NCBI GenBank assembly: GCA_017475525.1
Contig: JAFVFH010000017.1
Coordinates: 1-32,949 of the forward strand
Direction: 5' to 3'
Source of the DNA: Alphaproteobacteria bacterium
GTDB lineage: Bacteria > Pseudomonadota > Alphaproteobacteria > RF32 > CAG-239
Length of the DNA: 32,949 bases
Positions 3,827 to 32,949 of the stretch are shown piece after piece. A program made the translations under genes and the position numbers. Every line of letters starts with the position of its first letter. Position 1 is the first letter of the stretch. The notes beneath the pieces were generated by a model. The model did not search any database, had not been told where the DNA came from, and worked only from the letters and a program-made list of their open reading frames with translations.

Positions 3827-3988
3827 GTAACCAAATGGTTGCGGTGTTTAACAGACACATTCATCGTTTACGCTCCTTGATGAGGAGTTGTCGAGATAAG
3901 CGTATATTTTACGTCGAATAAGGCAAACTGTGCGATGACAGTTCTGTTAGCTCCTCCGTTTTGGTATTTATCTGAGACGGTTTTTTTT
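3827..3988 (+). ncRNA. Type-1 structured leader RNA with terminator (copy A)
   Basis: Candidate cis-regulatory RNA. Parts in order: hairpin GTAACCA/TGGTTGC (3827-3842); GGTGT, with P1 GTGT/ACAC (3844-3858), whose loop TAACAG (3849-3854) can pair with CTGTTA (3944-3949) as a pseudoknot; long stem TCATCG/CGATGA (3861-3866, 3933-3938) enclosing hairpins CTCCT/AGGAG (3873-3887) and CGTA/TACG (3901-3913); linker CTCCTCC; terminator CCGTTT/AGACGG (3956-3980) and eight T. Copy B (18222-18384) has the same layout with compensatory changes in every stem, and both hold the repeated unpaired motif CGA[A/G]ATAAG...CGAATAAGG. The next ATG is 37 nt after the T-run with no room for another promoter, so read-through should control that gene. 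Confidence 0.75.
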
Positions 3989-4024
3989 AATTTTGTAAAA
4001 ATAATAAAAAAATGAAGGAGAAAA

Positions 4025-5401
4025 ATGATGCAAAAAAAGTTTTTTAGTGTGCTGATGACAGGTGTCATATTTTCAACCGGTGCTTTGGCAGATGTTTCAC
4101 AATATTATTACAATGAAAAAGGGTTGCTGACAAAAAAATGTTGGACAACGGATTGTTCTTCTTATGTCTCTTATGAATATGACGATCAAGATCGGCTAGT
4201 CTCTGAAACGGATGGTGGCTGGAGCTATAAATACACCTATCAGGATAATGCCGTTATGCAACGTGATACCTATCGAAATGGGGTCAAAAGTGAGACTTAT
4301 TTTTTTAAACAGGATTTTGATTTTCCAAATGTTGCGTCACGTTATGATGAAGGGGAAAGCATGGGAGCTTTATACTATGATTCTAACGGAAATATAACAG
4401 GAGGTAATTTATATAGCGTTGAAAACGGCACGGTATACAAAACAGACTATACAAACGGTGTTGCGCAAACTCCCGAAGTCGTTGGCCGTTATGTTCATAC
4501 AGATGACGGCAGAACGTTGGAAACAAGGTATTCGGACTGGCGTACATCAACAACAATTCGTGATGAAACAAATATGAAAGGGCTTGGTTATGAAAATATT
4601 TACGAGGACGGGCGTAAGGAAATAACGAATTTTGATAACGGCTATGAACGTCCAAACGTAATGACTTATTATCCTGACGGAAGTTTTGAAGGAAGGATGC
4701 ATATTTTAGATGAATACGGCAATCCCATCAGCTATACACAATACAACAAAGATGGAACAAGCCTGATTGAAATAGCTTTTGATAATGTGTATGATAACGG
4801 GAAATTGATTTCTCAAACATTGACATTCGATAACGGTCAGTATCAGGTTGTCGAATATTATGATGACGGAACAAGAAAGTCAGAAAAAAATTATGATAAA
4901 GATGGTGTCCTTCAATCAGAGGTCTCATTTGATGAGCACGGAAATGACATATATTTTACTTCTAATGATGGCCAATACAGTGAGTTTTCTCATGAATATG
5001 ATAAACAAGGTAATCTTTTAAAAACAACATTTTCTCGCTATGATCAAGACGGCAAGTTAATAAGTGAGGGCGAAGAAAGTTGTGATTCTTGGCTTGTGAA
5101 GCAAATAGGCTTCGGTATGATGGACAGAAACTGTGTAAGCATTAAAGATATCGGCTATGATGCTGACGGAAATGTGATGTGGGGAAGATATTGGGAGTTT
5201 GATGAATATGGTAATCCGCTTCAAGAAATGCAATACCAAAACAATCAACCGGTTGCTCAAAGGGCGCATGTATATGCAAATCCAAACTGGAAAGCCGCTT
5301 TGAAAGCACTTCATAGAAAAATTCGTCGCAGCTATACGCTTGAAGAAGCCGCAGCAGCAAGCAAACCGACAGGAAATACGTTTAGGCTGAGATATAAATA
5401 A
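4025..5401 (+). CDS. Secreted YD-repeat-like protein with C-terminal RLRYK motif
   Basis: A 458-residue exported protein. The signal peptide is MMQKKFFSVLMTGVIFSTG followed by ALA and cleavage before DVSQYY. Most of the rest is a degenerate repeat of about 20 residues built on YDxxGxL or FDxxGNx (for example YDDQDRL, YNKDGTSL, YDKDGVL, YDKQGNL, YDADGNV), resembling YD/RHS-type beta repeats. It ends with RRSYTLEEA...TGNTFRLRYK, a tail shared with the proteins at 11137 and 29067. ATG 4025 or ATG 4028 may be the start; both follow AAGGAG. Expression is probably governed by the leader at 3827-3988. Its partner or ligand is unknown; surface location is inferred from the signal peptide and repeats. 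Confidence 0.82.
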   Translation: MMQKKFFSVLMTGVIFSTGALADVSQYYYNEKGLLTKKCWTTDCSSYVSYEYDDQDRLVSETDGGWSYKYTYQDNAVMQRDTYRNGVKSETYFFKQDFDFPNVASRYDEGESMGALYYDSNGNITGGNLYSVENGTVYKTDYTNGVAQTPEVVGRYVHTDDGRTLETRYSDWRTSTTIRDETNMKGLGYENIYEDGRKEITNFDNGYERPNVMTYYPDGSFEGRMHILDEYGNPISYTQYNKDGTSLIEIAFDNVYDNGKLISQTLTFDNGQYQVVEYYDDGTRKSEKNYDKDGVLQSEVSFDEHGNDIYFTSNDGQYSEFSHEYDKQGNLLKTTFSRYDQDGKLISEGEESCDSWLVKQIGFGMMDRNCVSIKDIGYDADGNVMWGRYWEFDEYGNPLQEMQYQNNQPVAQRAHVYANPNWKAALKALHRKIRRSYTLEEAAAASKPTGNTFRLRYK

Positions 5402-10920: not shown

Positions 10921-11112
10921 GATGTGGGCAAGGGCACACATCAGCACCAAAAGGTGCGGAGCTTTCCAAAGCTTTGGATTCGCAGGCAATCTTGCCTAAT
11001 ATTCCCCGACATGGGTTGGGGAGCTTTTAGCGTATATATGAAGGCTAAAAGAGTCATTTGCGAATCTATGATTTTGGAACTCTCCAACCACCTTTTGAGG
11101 TGGATTTTTTTT
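10921..11112 (+). ncRNA. Type-2 structured leader RNA with terminator (copy C)
   Basis: Parts in order: hairpin GATGTG/CACATC (10921-10942); hairpin GCACC/GGTGC (10944-10957); GGAGC with P1 AGCTTT/AAAGCT (10960-10973), whose loop region TTCCAA can pair with TTGGAA near 11074-11079; long stem GATTCGCA/TGCGAATC (10977-10984, 11059-11066) enclosing GGCAA/TTGCC, CCCC/GGGG and CTTTTAG/CTAAAAG hairpins; conserved GTCATTT before and ATGATT after the 3' strand; CTCTCC (11080-11085), which can pair with GGAG at 10958; terminator CCACCT/AGGTGG (11088-11103) and nine T. Copies D and E share the layout and the conserved words. The downstream ATG is 25 nt after the T-run. Confidence 0.75.
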
Positions 11113-11136: not shown

Positions 11137-12099
11137 ATGAGAAAGTGGGTTTTAGCTATTTGTCTTCTGGCAAGTTTTAATGCAAAGGCTGAAATTGTTA
11201 CAGGTGAAAAATGCGGTGATGATTGTTCTTGGACTTTGGATACGGATACAGGGCAATTGACTATTTCAGGAACCGGCAATATGTATGATTGGGATTTTTT
11301 TGATACGGGGCATCGTTTATGGGATGGTGGTGAAAGTCACCATCAAACCCTGGCGCCATGGGGGGAATATAGTGCCGATATTCAACATATTGAGGTTGGA
11401 AACGGGATAACATATATAGGAGATCACTCTTTTTACAATACATCAGCAACAAGTGTTAATCTTCCAAATACATTAGAGCAAATCGGACCACAATCTTTTC
11501 AATATTCTAATTTACAGGAACTAACTATTCCGTCTTCTGTCACAACTCTTGGATTTGCATCGCTTGATCATACAAAGATAAGCCATCTTGAGCTGCCGGA
11601 CAGTATTACTTCAATTGGAGATGTTGCTTTTCGATATATGCCGCTGGACAATCTAGTGATTCCGGATTCTGTGATATCAATTGAAGGAGATCGTGTTTTT
11701 TTAGGTGTTGGCGGAACAATTTATTGCACAGCCTCTTCGCCTTGTGCAGACAAAGGCTCTGAAAATATTGTTCCGTATGAACGAGAAGGCGGTGTATATA
11801 TTTTAAACGGCAAGTATTATTTTACCGGCGCTGATATGGCAGGCGAGACAAACGAGTGCCAAAAAGAACTCGGTGAATGTAAACGTGATGTTTTGGAAAG
11901 CAAAGGCATTTGCTCAGGTTCGGCTTGTGACACTTTCATTCAAAGCGATGGTCATTATATGCTCAAATATAATGGGAGAACCTATCAAAGTATCAATGAC
12001 CTTTTGAAAGGAAATTATGACAGACGGCGGATTTATACCGTCGAAGAAGCCAGTTTTGTGAGCGGTAAGAAAAATACGGTTCGTCTAAGATATAAATAA
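11137..12099 (+). CDS. Secreted BspA-like leucine-rich repeat protein with RLRYK tail
   Basis: A 320-residue exported protein. ATG 11137 is chosen because it follows ATGGAGA and gives the signal peptide MRKWVLAICLLASFNAKA; the longer upstream frame runs through the leader RNA. After the signal comes a beta-rich segment, CSWTLDTDTGQLTISGTG, shared in pattern with the protein at 29067. Then come BspA/LRR_5-type repeats (about residues 85-190: ITYIGDHSFYNT, LEQIGPQSFQYS, ITSIGDVAFRY). A Cys-containing region, DECQ-like and CKRD, follows, and the C-terminus is RRIYTVEEA...KNTVRLRYK. Such repeats often mediate adhesion; that role is inference. Expression is probably set by the leader at 10921-11112. 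Confidence 0.85.
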   Translation: MRKWVLAICLLASFNAKAEIVTGEKCGDDCSWTLDTDTGQLTISGTGNMYDWDFFDTGHRLWDGGESHHQTLAPWGEYSADIQHIEVGNGITYIGDHSFYNTSATSVNLPNTLEQIGPQSFQYSNLQELTIPSSVTTLGFASLDHTKISHLELPDSITSIGDVAFRYMPLDNLVIPDSVISIEGDRVFLGVGGTIYCTASSPCADKGSENIVPYEREGGVYILNGKYYFTGADMAGETNECQKELGECKRDVLESKGICSGSACDTFIQSDGHYMLKYNGRTYQSINDLLKGNYDRRRIYTVEEASFVSGKKNTVRLRYK

Positions 12100-18221: not shown

Positions 18222-18384
18222 GTTATCTGAAATCAGGTAACGGTGTCCAACTGACACGTAAGACCTTAGCTCCTTTGCAGAGGAGTTCCCGAAATAAGCC
18301 AGTTTACTGTTCGAATAAGGGAGACTGTGGTCTTACAGTTAGTTGACTCCTCCATTTTGAGATTTTTTCAAGATGGATTTTTTT
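18222..18384 (+). ncRNA. Type-1 structured leader RNA with terminator (copy B)
   Basis: Hairpin GTTATCTGA/TCAGGTAAC with loop AA (18222-18241); P1 GTGTC/GACAC (18243-18257), whose 5-nt loop CAACT can pair with AGTTG (18341-18345); long stem GTAAGACC/GGTCTTAC (18258-18265, 18329-18336) enclosing CTCCT/AGGAG (18270-18285) and CAGT/ACTG (18300-18309); linker CTCCTCC; a 9-bp terminator CCATTTTGA/TCAAGATGG (18352-18376) and seven T. Every stem differs in sequence from copy A but pairs in the same place. The next ATG is 45 nt beyond the T-run. Confidence 0.78.
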
Positions 18385-18428
18385 GGACTATCTTTAATAT
18401 TAACCCTTTATTTTATGGAGAAATTAAA

Positions 18429-22142: not shown

Positions 22143-23006
22143 CTAATACCTTAAGCTTGTTTTGATGTTTAAGAATGGGATTTTGCCAAACAGATAAATT
22201 TTTGTTCTTCGGTTTTGTTTGATGATTTTAAACAAAGGCAAAAAGCCGAACAAACGTATGGTGCTCGTTTGAGATGAACTGAGCAAAAGTTCATTATACA
22301 AAGCGGGATATTGGGCTTGAACAGATGCCCATAAGGCAAGCGAGGCATCGTCCATCTTTGAAGACTTTGTGTGTGAGCTGTTGTTTTTATGATTGCGATA
22401 ATGGAAAAGAACTTCTTGAATGTTTGCAAATTTTGTTATGCCAATCAGGCGACACCATAGGGCATAATCTTCGGCAGGGGAAAATTCGGCTTCGTAACGA
22501 ATGTTGTTGTCAATCAATACGGATTTTCGAATCATTGAAGAAGGGTGCAAAATGGCACAGCTTCGCATTAAAGCCACCTTGATTTTGTGGTCTGCTTCAG
22601 GTTTTTTTAAGATTTTTGATTTGACAATCTCTTTGCTCCATGTGCCGACAACGCCGACATCAGGGTGCGAATCGAGAAAAGCGACTTCTTTTTCAAATCT
22701 TGTCGGCAATGAAATGTCATCATGATCCATCACGGCCAGATATTCCCCTTTGCTCAAATCTATCAATTTGTTGCGCGAGGGGGAAATGCCTAAATTTTGC
22801 TTGTTTTTGAAATATTTGATGCGTTTGTCGTGATATGACTTGACAATATTTTCAACCGGATTTGCCGGACAATCATCTAAAATGAGAAATTCAAAATTTG
22901 TATAGGTCTGAGTTAAGATACTCTCGATGGCTTCGCGTAAATATGTTTCCGGCGTTTGATAAACGGGCATTAAAACGGAAACTTTCGGGTTTAAAAGGTT
23001 GGTCAT
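22143..23006 (-). CDS. Family-2 glycosyltransferase
   Basis: A 287-residue GT-A fold enzyme, likely building a surface polysaccharide. Features: KVSVLMPVYQTPETYLREAI at the N-terminus, SILTQTYTNFEFLILDD, NLGISPSRNK, the DxD-like metal site VMDHDD near residue 93, and AEDYALWCRL as the acceptor-side acidic motif. A C-terminal part from about 240 has two hydrophobic stretches ending FLNIKTSLRY. ATG 23006 follows GGAGATTGAC; the longer frame runs into the leader terminator. It is controlled by leader D and lies near an RgpF-like gene, suggesting a glycan locus. Confidence 0.92.
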   Translation of the reverse strand: MTNLLNPKVSVLMPVYQTPETYLREAIESILTQTYTNFEFLILDDCPANPVENIVKSYHDKRIKYFKNKQNLGISPSRNKLIDLSKGEYLAVMDHDDISLPTRFEKEVAFLDSHPDVGVVGTWSKEIVKSKILKKPEADHKIKVALMRSCAILHPSSMIRKSVLIDNNIRYEAEFSPAEDYALWCRLIGITKFANIQEVLFHYRNHKNNSSHTKSSKMDDASLALWASVQAQYPALYNELLLSSSQTSTIRLFGFLPLFKIIKQNRRTKIYLFGKIPFLNIKTSLRY

Positions 23007-23028: not shown

Positions 23029-23294
23029 AAAAAAATAAACCACCTTTGGAGGTGGTCTGGAGAGTTGAACAATCATGTTACGCTAAATGACCCTCTCAGC
23101 CTTTATGATTTAAAAATCACTGGACATCCACTGAAAGCTCCCAGACCATATATATGACCTGGGATTATTTTACTTTTGGCGATTATCAAGCGCCAAAAGG
23201 TATGACGATGTCAATCCCAGACACCGAACGTAACAAGAGCTGTTCAAGGCTCCGAACCGCCTTCGGTTCTAAATGCGCTTTATCAAAGCGCATC
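23029..23294 (-). ncRNA. Type-2 structured leader RNA with terminator (copy D)
   Basis: On the minus strand: hairpin ATGCGCTTT/AAAGCGCAT (23293 down to 23273); hairpin GAACC/GGTTC; GGAGCC; P1 AGC/GCT, whose loop TTGAACA (23247-23241) pairs perfectly with TGTTCAA (23071-23065); long stem TGTTACGTT/AGCGTAACA (23235-23227, 23084-23076); inner hairpins including CTTTTGGCG/CGCCAAAAG; GTCATTT and ATGATT as in C and E; CTCTCC; terminator CCACCT/AGGTGG and a T-tract. A -10-like TATAAA and a -35-like TTGCCT lie just upstream. The glycosyltransferase ATG is 23 nt beyond the T-tract. Confidence 0.75.
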
Positions 23295-23345
23295 TAAGAA
23301 CTTTTATATCAGGATATCAAAAAAAGGCAACAGAAATTTTGAGTT

Positions 23346-29066: not shown

Positions 29067-30113
29067 TTATTTATATCTTAACCTAAACGTATTTCCTGTC
29101 GGCTTGGAAATCTTTTCAGCCTCTTCAACGGTGTAGATGCGTTTGGGTGCGCTTCTTTGCGTATTATTTGTTGCCGGAATGTTCGGTTCAGACGAAGGCT
29201 CGGTATTATTTGAGGCTAAAACCAAAGTCTCGCCTGATTGACTTTGATATGTGTATCCGTCTTCTCCGTCTGAAACTTTGTTGTAGCGTGTGCCGTTATA
29301 AACAAAAGTGTCTAAAGCCCCTTCATCATTTGCGTCCGGAATATCTTCCAAAGAAGTATAATTTTTGAGAATATTATTGTTGGTATCAAACCACCCGAAA
29401 CTTAAAGCACTCACACCATCGTTTATATTCTCCCAATAATTTTTGCAAGTGCTGACATCACCTCTGCATTCAACCGTCAGATTGGAGAAGTTTGCATTTT
29501 GTCTGGCGTATTCTTCTAGTTCCTCAGTAATCCACTCCATCTCCATTTTCGCAGATTCTAACTGATTATACCAATACATTGCTTGTTCACGTTCATATGA
29601 TGATATGTATGGGTTGCTATCCAGAACACTACAGTCCCAACCATTAACTGTTTGGTTGCATGCCTGTCCGGGTCCCCAGTACATTTGCTGGAGAGCCTCT
29701 TCATGTTTGTTTGTGGCGTTTGTATATGCTGTTTCTCGTTGCCATAAATATTCTCTGTCCTGAAAATTAGCGTAATTGATTTTCAAACTGTCTGGAACAT
29801 CAATGCTTTCTAGGTTTTTCATACTGTCAAAAGCCATTTTTCCGACATTTGTGATTCCATCATTAATCACAATTTTTTTGACTGAAGATGCCGAATCATT
29901 CCATGGTGCAACGGTTCCATAATACATGCGCTGATAATCGCCTATGGCGCCGGTGCCGGAGAGAGTGAGTGTTCCGTCATCTGAGATAGACCACGTGCCA
30001 CTTCCCTCTGTGCCGTTCGCCCAACTTCCGCTTGCTATTTCAGCGTGAGCAGATGGCATTGATAATAAAACAGTTGTCAGAATGTTGAAAATTATAGTGT
30101 TATTTCTCATCAT
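29067..30113 (-). CDS. Secreted BspA-like protein with C-terminal RLRYK motif
   Basis: A 348-residue exported protein. ATG 30113 or 30110 follows GGAGAAAA; the longer frame runs into the leader terminator. The signal peptide is followed by EIASGSW, and a beta segment GTWSISDDGTLTLSGTGAIG shared in pattern with the protein at 11137. Then comes APWNDSASSVKKIVINDGIT, and only one or two LRR_5-like units. The centre (about residues 115-215) is helical and rich in Tyr, Trp, Asn and Glu. The end is PKRIYTVEEA...TGNTFRLRYK. It is the third carrier of this tail. Leader E precedes it. It breaks up the redox island on the opposite strand. Confidence 0.85.
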   Translation of the reverse strand: MMRNNTIIFNILTTVLLSMPSAHAEIASGSWANGTEGSGTWSISDDGTLTLSGTGAIGDYQRMYYGTVAPWNDSASSVKKIVINDGITNVGKMAFDSMKNLESIDVPDSLKINYANFQDREYLWQRETAYTNATNKHEEALQQMYWGPGQACNQTVNGWDCSVLDSNPYISSYEREQAMYWYNQLESAKMEMEWITEELEEYARQNANFSNLTVECRGDVSTCKNYWENINDGVSALSFGWFDTNNNILKNYTSLEDIPDANDEGALDTFVYNGTRYNKVSDGEDGYTYQSQSGETLVLASNNTEPSSEPNIPATNNTQRSAPKRIYTVEEAEKISKPTGNTFRLRYK

Positions 30114-30135: not shown

Positions 30136-30380
30136 AAAAAAACCGCACCTTGAGGAGCGGTCGGAGCGTGCAAAAATCATATTAGAGGAAATGACTCCGA
30201 CAGTCTTTAGGAAAAATCCTTGGACATTCACTATCGGCACCCCGAACCAAAATCGGGGATAAATGTGTTATTAAAAATAAAAAATAACACTTCATGCAGT
30301 GTTATCCTCACTGCCTCTAATAAACAAGCTTTTGCAAAGCTCCGCGCCTTTCAGGCACTTGATATGAGAAATCTCATATC
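30136..30380 (-). ncRNA. Type-2 structured leader RNA with terminator (copy E)
   Basis: On the minus strand: hairpin GATATGAG/CTCATATC (30380-30361); hairpin GTGCC/GGCGC; GGAGC (30343-30339); P1 AGCTTT/AAAGCT-like hairpin, whose loop TGCAAAA (30336-30330) pairs perfectly with TTTTGCA (30175-30169); long stem TATTAGAGG/CCTCTAATA (30322-30314, 30188-30180); inner hairpins ATAACACT/AGTGTTAT, CCCCGA/TCGGGG and CCGATAGT/ACTGTCGG, the last with the loop word ATGTCCA seen in D; GCTCC; terminator ACCGC/GCGGT and a T-tract. TTGACA lies just upstream as a -35 box. The gene starts 22 nt beyond. Confidence 0.75.
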
Positions 30381-30449
30381 TATTTTTATGATGGCATATT
30401 TTCAAAGAAATGTCAAAGAAAAAATGTTGAGATATCTTGAGATTTTTGC

Positions 30450-32823: not shown

Positions 32824-32949
32824 CAGAAAACCCCGCGTTAGACGCGGGGTTCAGTGAAGCTTTCAGCGGTGAGATGGACAAAGCGCTCCAATTGGGTTAA
32901 AATTTTGCGGTCTGCCAAGACGCAAAATAACCCAATTGGAGAACATTCA
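32824..32949 (+). mobile_element. Left end of a second IS200/IS605-like element (cut by window edge)
   Basis: GAAAAC precedes hairpin CCCCGCGT (32831-32838), loop TAG, ACGCGGGG (32842-32849): an 8-bp stem with a TAG loop, as in the first element. The following TTCAGTGAAGCTTTCAGCGG resembles TTCGAAAGAGCTTATAGCG of the first element. A long RBS-hiding stem then reaches the edge (32886-32941). The last bases, CATTCA, imply that the tnpA ATG begins at 32949. No transposase sequence is inside the window. Confidence 0.75.
32886..32941 (+). promoter_or_regulatory. RBS-sequestering hairpin of the second tnpA
   Basis: CTCCAATTGGGTTA (32886 on) pairs with ACCCAATTGGAG (to 32941), and ATTTTGCG with CGCAAAAT inside, capped by TCT/AGA. 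GGAG at the 3' end is the likely ribosome-binding site, about 7 nt before the expected ATG. It has the same design as 263-320 with a different sequence. Confidence 0.7.

Follow-up and report, generated by a model that had tools for sequence, protein, structure and literature searches.

What do three similar segments in a stretch of alphaproteobacterial DNA encode, and what could they do for the genes that follow? A reading from the sequence alone had proposed that these segments, here called C, D and E, are copies of a functional, structurally conserved leader RNA with a terminator. This proposal is supported by covariation, by copies across the home genome, by relatives throughout the class and by a position about 50 nt before an open reading frame (ORF). 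The three segments are members of a large family of structured regulatory RNAs that occurs in Alphaproteobacteria and in some other Pseudomonadota, on chromosomes as well as on Agrobacterium Ti and rhizobial plasmids. Judging by its shape, the leader may turn the gene that follows on and off. No description of the leader RNA was found in the literature searched.

Three Copies in One Window

The window is the whole stretch that was analysed, 32,949 nucleotides long. Two covariance models were used, with E-values from a shortened calibration: R1 was built from 33 paralogues of the home genome and R2, a broader model, from 49 sequences. Copy C, at 10921–11112 on the forward strand, is a complete leader with its terminator (R1 96.1 bits, R2 101.1 bits, E 1e-29); the gene after it starts at 11137 on the same strand and encodes a secreted BspA-LRR protein (PF13306, E 9e-23). 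Copies D (23029–23295; 133.4 and 139.5 bits, E 2.5e-41) and E (30136–30382; 185 and 141.9 bits, E 4.5e-42) are likewise complete, with terminators, and lie on the reverse strand. The gene after D, starting at 23006 on that strand, encodes a family-2 glycosyltransferase (PF00535, E 1e-28), and the one after E, also on the reverse strand, a secreted protein with a YTVEEA..FRLRYK tail. The scores of the three copies range from 96 to 185 bits with R1 and from 101 to 142 bits with R2, and their folding z-scores are -7.4, -8.2 and -7.5, none of 200 shuffles being as stable. All of the words and pairings that had been named for the shared architecture are present in C, D and E where they were placed.

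A Double Pseudoknot

The fold is a double pseudoknot, in which loop X of hairpin S1 pairs with a downstream strand, X', and strand Y pairs with the loop of hairpin P9. From 5' to 3', the order is P1; P2; S1 with loop X; Y; variable hairpins; P7; P8, which carries a conserved internal loop; P9 with loop Y'; X'; the tail CUCYCC-GACC; and the terminator.

In copy C, all on the forward strand, these parts can be followed by sequence and fold. The 5' hairpin P1 (GATGTG/CACATC) occupies 10921–10942 and P2 (GCACC/GGTGC) 10944–10957, with changes on both sides at 5/5 helix pairs family-wide. The GGAGC word follows at 10958–10962, and S1 (GGAGCU..AGCU), a covarying hairpin, at 10959–10974, with loop X (TCCAA) at 10965–10969. 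Its partner X' (TTGGA) lies at 11074–11078, with 98% of the cells paired and both-side changes at 5/5 pairs; the loop pairing in C extends to TTCCAA (10964–10969) with TTGGAA (11074–11079). Strand Y is GATTCGCA at 10977–10984 and its partner Y' is TGCGAATC at 11059–11066. P8, with CTTTTAGC/GCTAAAAG, spans 11024–11051 (both-side changes at 8/8 pairs), and its conserved internal motif GCGTAT..AAGGC is shortened in this copy. P9 (AGTCAT..ATGATT), with Y' in its loop, covers 11052–11073 and includes the words GTCATTT (11053–11059) and ATGATT (11068–11073).

How well does this fold hold in other copies? Among the 33 paralogues, 94.0% of the cells are paired vs 78.8±0.6 after shuffling, with slid controls at 36–54% and both-side changes at 30/43 pairs. 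The covariation that had been asked for in more homologues is overwhelming: 90.0% of the cells are paired in the 49 diverse sequences vs 75.4±0.5 after shuffling (slid controls 38–51%), likewise with both-side changes at 30 pairs. S1 appears as GAGC/GCUC, GGGG/CCCC, GAGU/ACUC or GGAUU/AAUCC, while P9 is 94.5% paired with compensatory changes such as GACCU/AGGUU, AACCG/CGGUU and AACAU/AUGUU.

The two pseudoknots stand out. X and X' are perfectly Watson–Crick complementary in 95/96 sequences, with 35 different words, and none of the 8608 non-cognate combinations is perfect. For Y and Y', the mean duplex energy is -11.9 kcal/mol for cognate vs -3.6 kcal/mol for non-cognate partners (z -42), and in the home genome the cognate partner ranks best in 21/21. 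Within that genome no parts vary more than X and Y, which have 0.46–0.59 differences per site; P8 (0.40) and P2 (0.29) follow, and the P9 stem has 0.00. A guide role like that of IscB or bridge RNAs was considered for these hypervariable strands and set aside, because they pair with each other inside the RNA. Both pseudoknots are mismatched in one home-genome copy, L007 (594–790, reverse strand, of C25), which looks like a product of two copies joined through recombination or misassembly; with both pseudoknots broken, it was excluded from the models.

Two parts of the sequence-only reading change with this fold. Its GTCAT and ATGAT words, thought to be single-stranded, form the hairpin P9, which covaries in distant relatives; its long stem is present, but the 3' strand lies in the P9 loop, so that the stem is the second pseudoknot. 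Minimum-energy folding had drawn a nested helix, P3a (GGAG with CUCC), as the main helix, yet its R–Y pair breaks in L089 and L265–L268 (GGAG with CUCCCC), and P3a was rejected because S1 and H10, the helix described below, account for both of its strands. A partial second 3' domain directly downstream of the full leader occurs in L315 (2064–2150 and 2178–2350, reverse strand), giving tandem 3' domains.

A Terminator with a Probable Competitor

As for the mechanism, the key element is strand GGUCGGGGAG, the 3' arm of P7, which can also form 10 bp with the tail CUCYCC-GACC, giving helix H10. The GACC of the tail is the start of the terminator 5' arm. Since the strand has two partners and GACC is common to H10 and the terminator, P7 excludes H10 and H10 excludes the terminator. 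In copy C, P7 (CCCCGAC..GGTTGGGG) lies at 11004–11021, the switching strand GGTTGGGGAG, at once P7 3' arm and H10 5' arm, at 11014–11023, and the H10 3' arm CTCTCCAACC, which begins with CTCTCC (11080–11085) and overlaps the terminator 5' arm, at 11080–11089; the intrinsic terminator, CCACC-TTTTGA-GGTGG plus a U-run, ends the leader at 11088–11112. The distance from the U-run to the ATG is only 24 nt, too short for a second promoter.

H10 is 94.2% paired, and over 98 sequences its cognate duplexes average -18.8 kcal/mol vs -16.1 kcal/mol for non-cognate ones (z -9.0, 0/5000 permutations). Compensatory swaps are seen in E (GGGGUG/CGCUCC), L008 (GGGGUG/CACUCC), L028 (GGGGAA/UUCUCC), D (GGUCUGGGAG/CUCUCC-AGACC), L282 (GGUCGGGGUG/CACCCCGAUC), L278 and others. 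P7 is conserved and 91.8% paired family-wide, but without covariation beyond shuffles in the family alignment, so that its role rests on the overlap with H10; a clear P7 is missing in a few relatives (L258–L260, L278). An antiterminator made of the P2 3' strand and the terminator is possible in C, but it was displaced by the stronger, covarying overlap of P7 and H10.

In sequence tests, the leader combines a 5' UTR position, an intrinsic terminator (a U-run, at least 5 of 9, follows the hairpin in 68/71 home-family loci) and a mutually exclusive antiterminator, as attenuation leaders do. It is thus probably a cis-acting transcription-attenuation element with a terminator/antiterminator switch, antitermination being the inferred step. 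P7 is transcribed first, before the tail. If it persists, the tail would stay free, GACC would serve as the terminator 5' arm and transcription would stop; if the pseudoknotted core stabilises H10, which can close the 3' domain of P8 and P9, GACC would be sequestered, the terminator would remain open and the gene would be read. H10 would then be the antiterminator state in vivo and the core the sensor, with a metabolite, a protein or an antisense RNA as the deciding signal. Mean energies in the home family are -14.3 (P7), -18.9 (H10) and -10.7 kcal/mol (terminator); as the sum of P7 and terminator (-25) is more stable than H10 alone (-18.9), read-through requires help from the pseudoknots or from a factor. 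It could also be that H10 is always formed and does not switch.

Some relatives differ at the 3' end. A hairpin over the ribosome-binding site replaces the terminator in L258–L260, as judged by eye, which suggests a translational version. In high-GC relatives (L314, L316–L321, L323, L325, L327, L331) a second conserved hairpin, GCGG-GGGCGYA-CCGC, lies between the leader and the ribosome-binding site, possibly a translational platform.

Compact Relatives in the Same Genome

The window also holds shorter leaders, from which C, D and E had been set apart as a separate "type 2" class. This division needs amending, as types 1 and 2 share one architecture and probably form one superfamily. The type-1 plan is GGUGU[X]ACAC, Y, CUCC..GGAG vs GAGGAG/CUCCUC, P9 as ACUGU[Y']ACAGU, X' and a terminator. 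One such relative, with terminator, lies at 3837–3997 on the forward strand before a secreted-protein gene at 4025: S1 is GTGT[TTAACAG]ACAC, X/X' is TAACAG/CTGTTA, Y/Y' is TCATCG/CGATGA in the P9 loop, and P7 CTCC..GGAG stands against H10 GAGGAG/CTCCTC. The other, also terminated and on the forward strand, at 18228–18385 before a gene at about 18430, has S1 GTGTC[CAACT]GACAC, X/X' CAACT/AGTTG, Y/Y' TAAGACC/GGTCTTA and H10 GAGGAGT/ACTCCTC. The home genome has 17 type-1 copies, vs 0 for the reversed control. Judged by their architecture, these leaders are probably homologous, compact versions of the double-pseudoknot design. A generic descriptor scan of the window was unspecific, with 9–14 false hits per shuffled window, and served only to indicate type-1 copies.

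Copies, Genomes and Neighboring Genes

How widespread is this RNA? The home genome (1.44 Mb, 85% complete) contains 36 occurrences of the skeleton GTCATT-N-ATGATT-N-CTCC vs 0 for the reversed control, and the genome-wide search with a covariance model that had been proposed as a check returned, with R1, 54 copies at E<1e-8. In a survey of mostly metagenome assemblies, the leader is found in 90/107 genomes and 14/16 genera of the family and in 127/153 genomes of the order; R2 matches occur in 50/385 genomes at class level and in 26/398 at phylum level, other Pseudomonadota classes included. A blastn search with an Agrobacterium traM leader returned 370 plasmid records, of which 271 are classed as conjugative, and 15 contigs of IMG/VR match a core pattern. 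R2 matches at full length in 25/27 viral and plasmid loci tested.

The first same-strand ORF begins within 100 nt in 50/53 home-family loci, typically about 50 nt from the leader, a distance that recurs in other orders and on plasmids. Most leaders in the home genome stand about 50 nt upstream of secreted-protein genes with a common C-terminal tail, YTVEEA..TGNTFRLRYK; the tail, in the form RIYTVEEAxxxSKPTGNTFRLRYK, occurs 116 times in the 1.44 Mb, and 53/71 leaders of both types were assigned to a gene of this family, several others lying at contig ends. It resembles a signal for sorting or anchoring. The window itself contains members of this secreted family (BspA-LRR, RHS/MORN-like) at 11137–12099, 29067–30110 and 4025–5401.

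In other genera, judging the proteins by eye, the genes after the leader encode autotransporters, lipoproteins, prepilins, glycosyltransferases, nucleases and XRE regulators. On Agrobacterium and Bradyrhizobium plasmids, including pTi_CFBP2788, the leader is upstream of TraM (PF09228, E 1e-33), between traH and traR, and it also precedes a DUF2285 protein and XRE regulators. The gene traM sets the quorum-sensing threshold for Ti-plasmid conjugation. Genes for phage antirepressor-like proteins follow some relatives, a position shared with the C4 antisense RNA of P1-like phages; however, there is no sequence or model match to C4, and the leader lies on the same strand as the gene.

A Known Small RNA, Probably Part of a Larger One

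Identity with a described Rfam family had been named as one of the refuting outcomes, and the answer is divided: no window copy is near any family, while RF02221 (sRNA-Xcc1) and the 3' half of the leader are linked as homologues by intermediates. C, D and E match nothing in Rfam, whether at the gathering cut-off or with E-values up to 5, and no other Rfam 15 family has a covariance-model match over the leader. RF02221 itself gives no hit in the window with E-values up to 5, its gathering score of 53 bits is not reached there, and its best copy in the home genome scores 20 bits. The window copies are thus distant, extended relatives, and not members of RF02221 by its own cut-off. Two matches to RF01405 (STnc490), at 32829–32941 (58.8 bits, above gathering) and 208–314 (41.9 bits), both on the forward strand, mark a repeated element far from Salmonella; they sit elsewhere in the window, are unrelated, and were dismissed as an identity for the leader.

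In distant relatives, RF02221 matches the 3' half, mostly below threshold, and coincides with R2 hits: in G695 its match at 2655541–2655633 coincides with the R2 match at 2655458–2655630, and in L395 it scores 70 bits where R2 gives E 5e-10. Conversely, R2 matches at full length on loci that pass RF02221 (L395, L393, L405, L376). Among 28 RF02221-passing loci from other genomes of the phylum, 54% have a combined stem-plus-Y score of 11 or more, a value reached by 1.6% when the upstream sequence is swapped, and by inspection L372, L373 and L375–L379 have the S1 hairpin upstream of RF02221, together with an X and a Y that match. The leader can therefore be traced to RF02221 through intermediates. 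The folds agree as well: in RF02221 the closing helix corresponds to H10, the long hairpin, which has an internal loop, to P8/P8a, the second hairpin to P9 and the short linker to X', and in a topology test of closing helix, long hairpin and second hairpin the leader consensus equals the RF02221 structure line. However, RF02221 is only 87 nt long, has no 5' domain, neither of the two pseudoknots and no terminator, and has been described as an sRNA that acts in trans.

This comparison makes it probable that sRNA-Xcc1 represents one part, the 3' half, of a longer leader RNA, and what is new would be an extended, cis-acting and previously unrecognised form of a known family, with antitermination as its putative mode of action. 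In Xanthomonas, sRNA-Xcc1 was detected by Northern blot at about 100 nt and measured as 88 nt by end mapping (PMC2996969), so that a stable RNA can consist of the 3' half alone, a point against the attenuation reading. According to another report, it precedes symE in a widespread integron cassette (PMC12444791), and Xylella Temecula1 has seven annotated homologues, five of them clustered on an island (PMC12189769).

What Else Could It Be?

Could the core be a riboswitch in the strict sense, binding a small molecule or second messenger? This is a real possibility, though it falls short of an even chance. Metabolite riboswitches with terminator platforms have the same combination of a conserved core and a helix that excludes the terminator; the internal-loop words GYGUAUGUYCARG..CYUAAAGGC, conserved beside freely covarying stems, are typical of aptamers, as are two expression platforms, which the terminator and the ribosome-site hairpin of L258–L260 probably represent. 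However, the two hypervariable pseudoknots set the leader apart from them, and the downstream genes (TraM, DUF2285, XRE, antirepressor-like, LRR, autotransporters, prepilins, glycosyltransferases) are not metabolic, nor is a common substrate visible among them. Processive antitermination RNAs of the EAR and put type, in which the folded RNA modifies the polymerase, are another group that the leader resembles, as a large pseudoknotted RNA directly upstream of a terminator and surface genes. Yet in the leader the antiterminator strand overlaps the terminator itself, and an overlap of exactly 10 bp between H10 and the terminator arm, with its compensatory changes, is expected under direct competition but superfluous for a processive element; we consider the processive reading improbable.

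Nor is it likely that the leader is a free-standing gene for a trans-acting sRNA, as sRNA-Xcc1 is described, with an incidental neighbor. Its own promoter-like sequence and terminator, the Northern signal of about 100 nt (PMC2996969) and the high copy numbers would suit such a gene, but the close same-strand ORF (50/53 loci), the spacing of about 50 nt kept in other orders and on plasmids, the 53/71 home-genome leaders before one gene family and a 3' tail constrained to pair with the strand overlapping the terminator all argue against it. The 54 copies beside a repeated gene family in one genome might even be repeats without RNA function that hitch-hike on gene duplication; this is scarcely credible, as compensatory changes at nearly every helix already contradict it and the same fold precedes unrelated genes in other families. 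With the attenuation switch as the preferred reading, a speculative extension, to which we give a small chance, is that X/X' and Y/Y' are private address codes that keep at least 70 leaders per genome orthogonal, so that partner RNAs or leaders would choose which surface gene is read.

Outlook

An obscure sRNA entry thus becomes what is probably a cis-acting RNA switch, widespread in Pseudomonadota, whose specific mechanism can be tested by mutation. The switch stands before genes that are already studied: traM, regulators carried by conjugative plasmids and by related mobile elements, prophage antirepressor-like genes and SymE-like genes of the integron-cassette type. If the address-code reading were true, an antigen-like repertoire in gut bacteria, and elsewhere conjugation (TraM) or prophage genes, would be governed by an RNA switch that is mobile. 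In the reduced gut genome considered here, at least 71 copies of the leader stand beside a secreted family of 116 genes, and what the cell displays on its surface may be set by one common signal or by a separate one for each copy.
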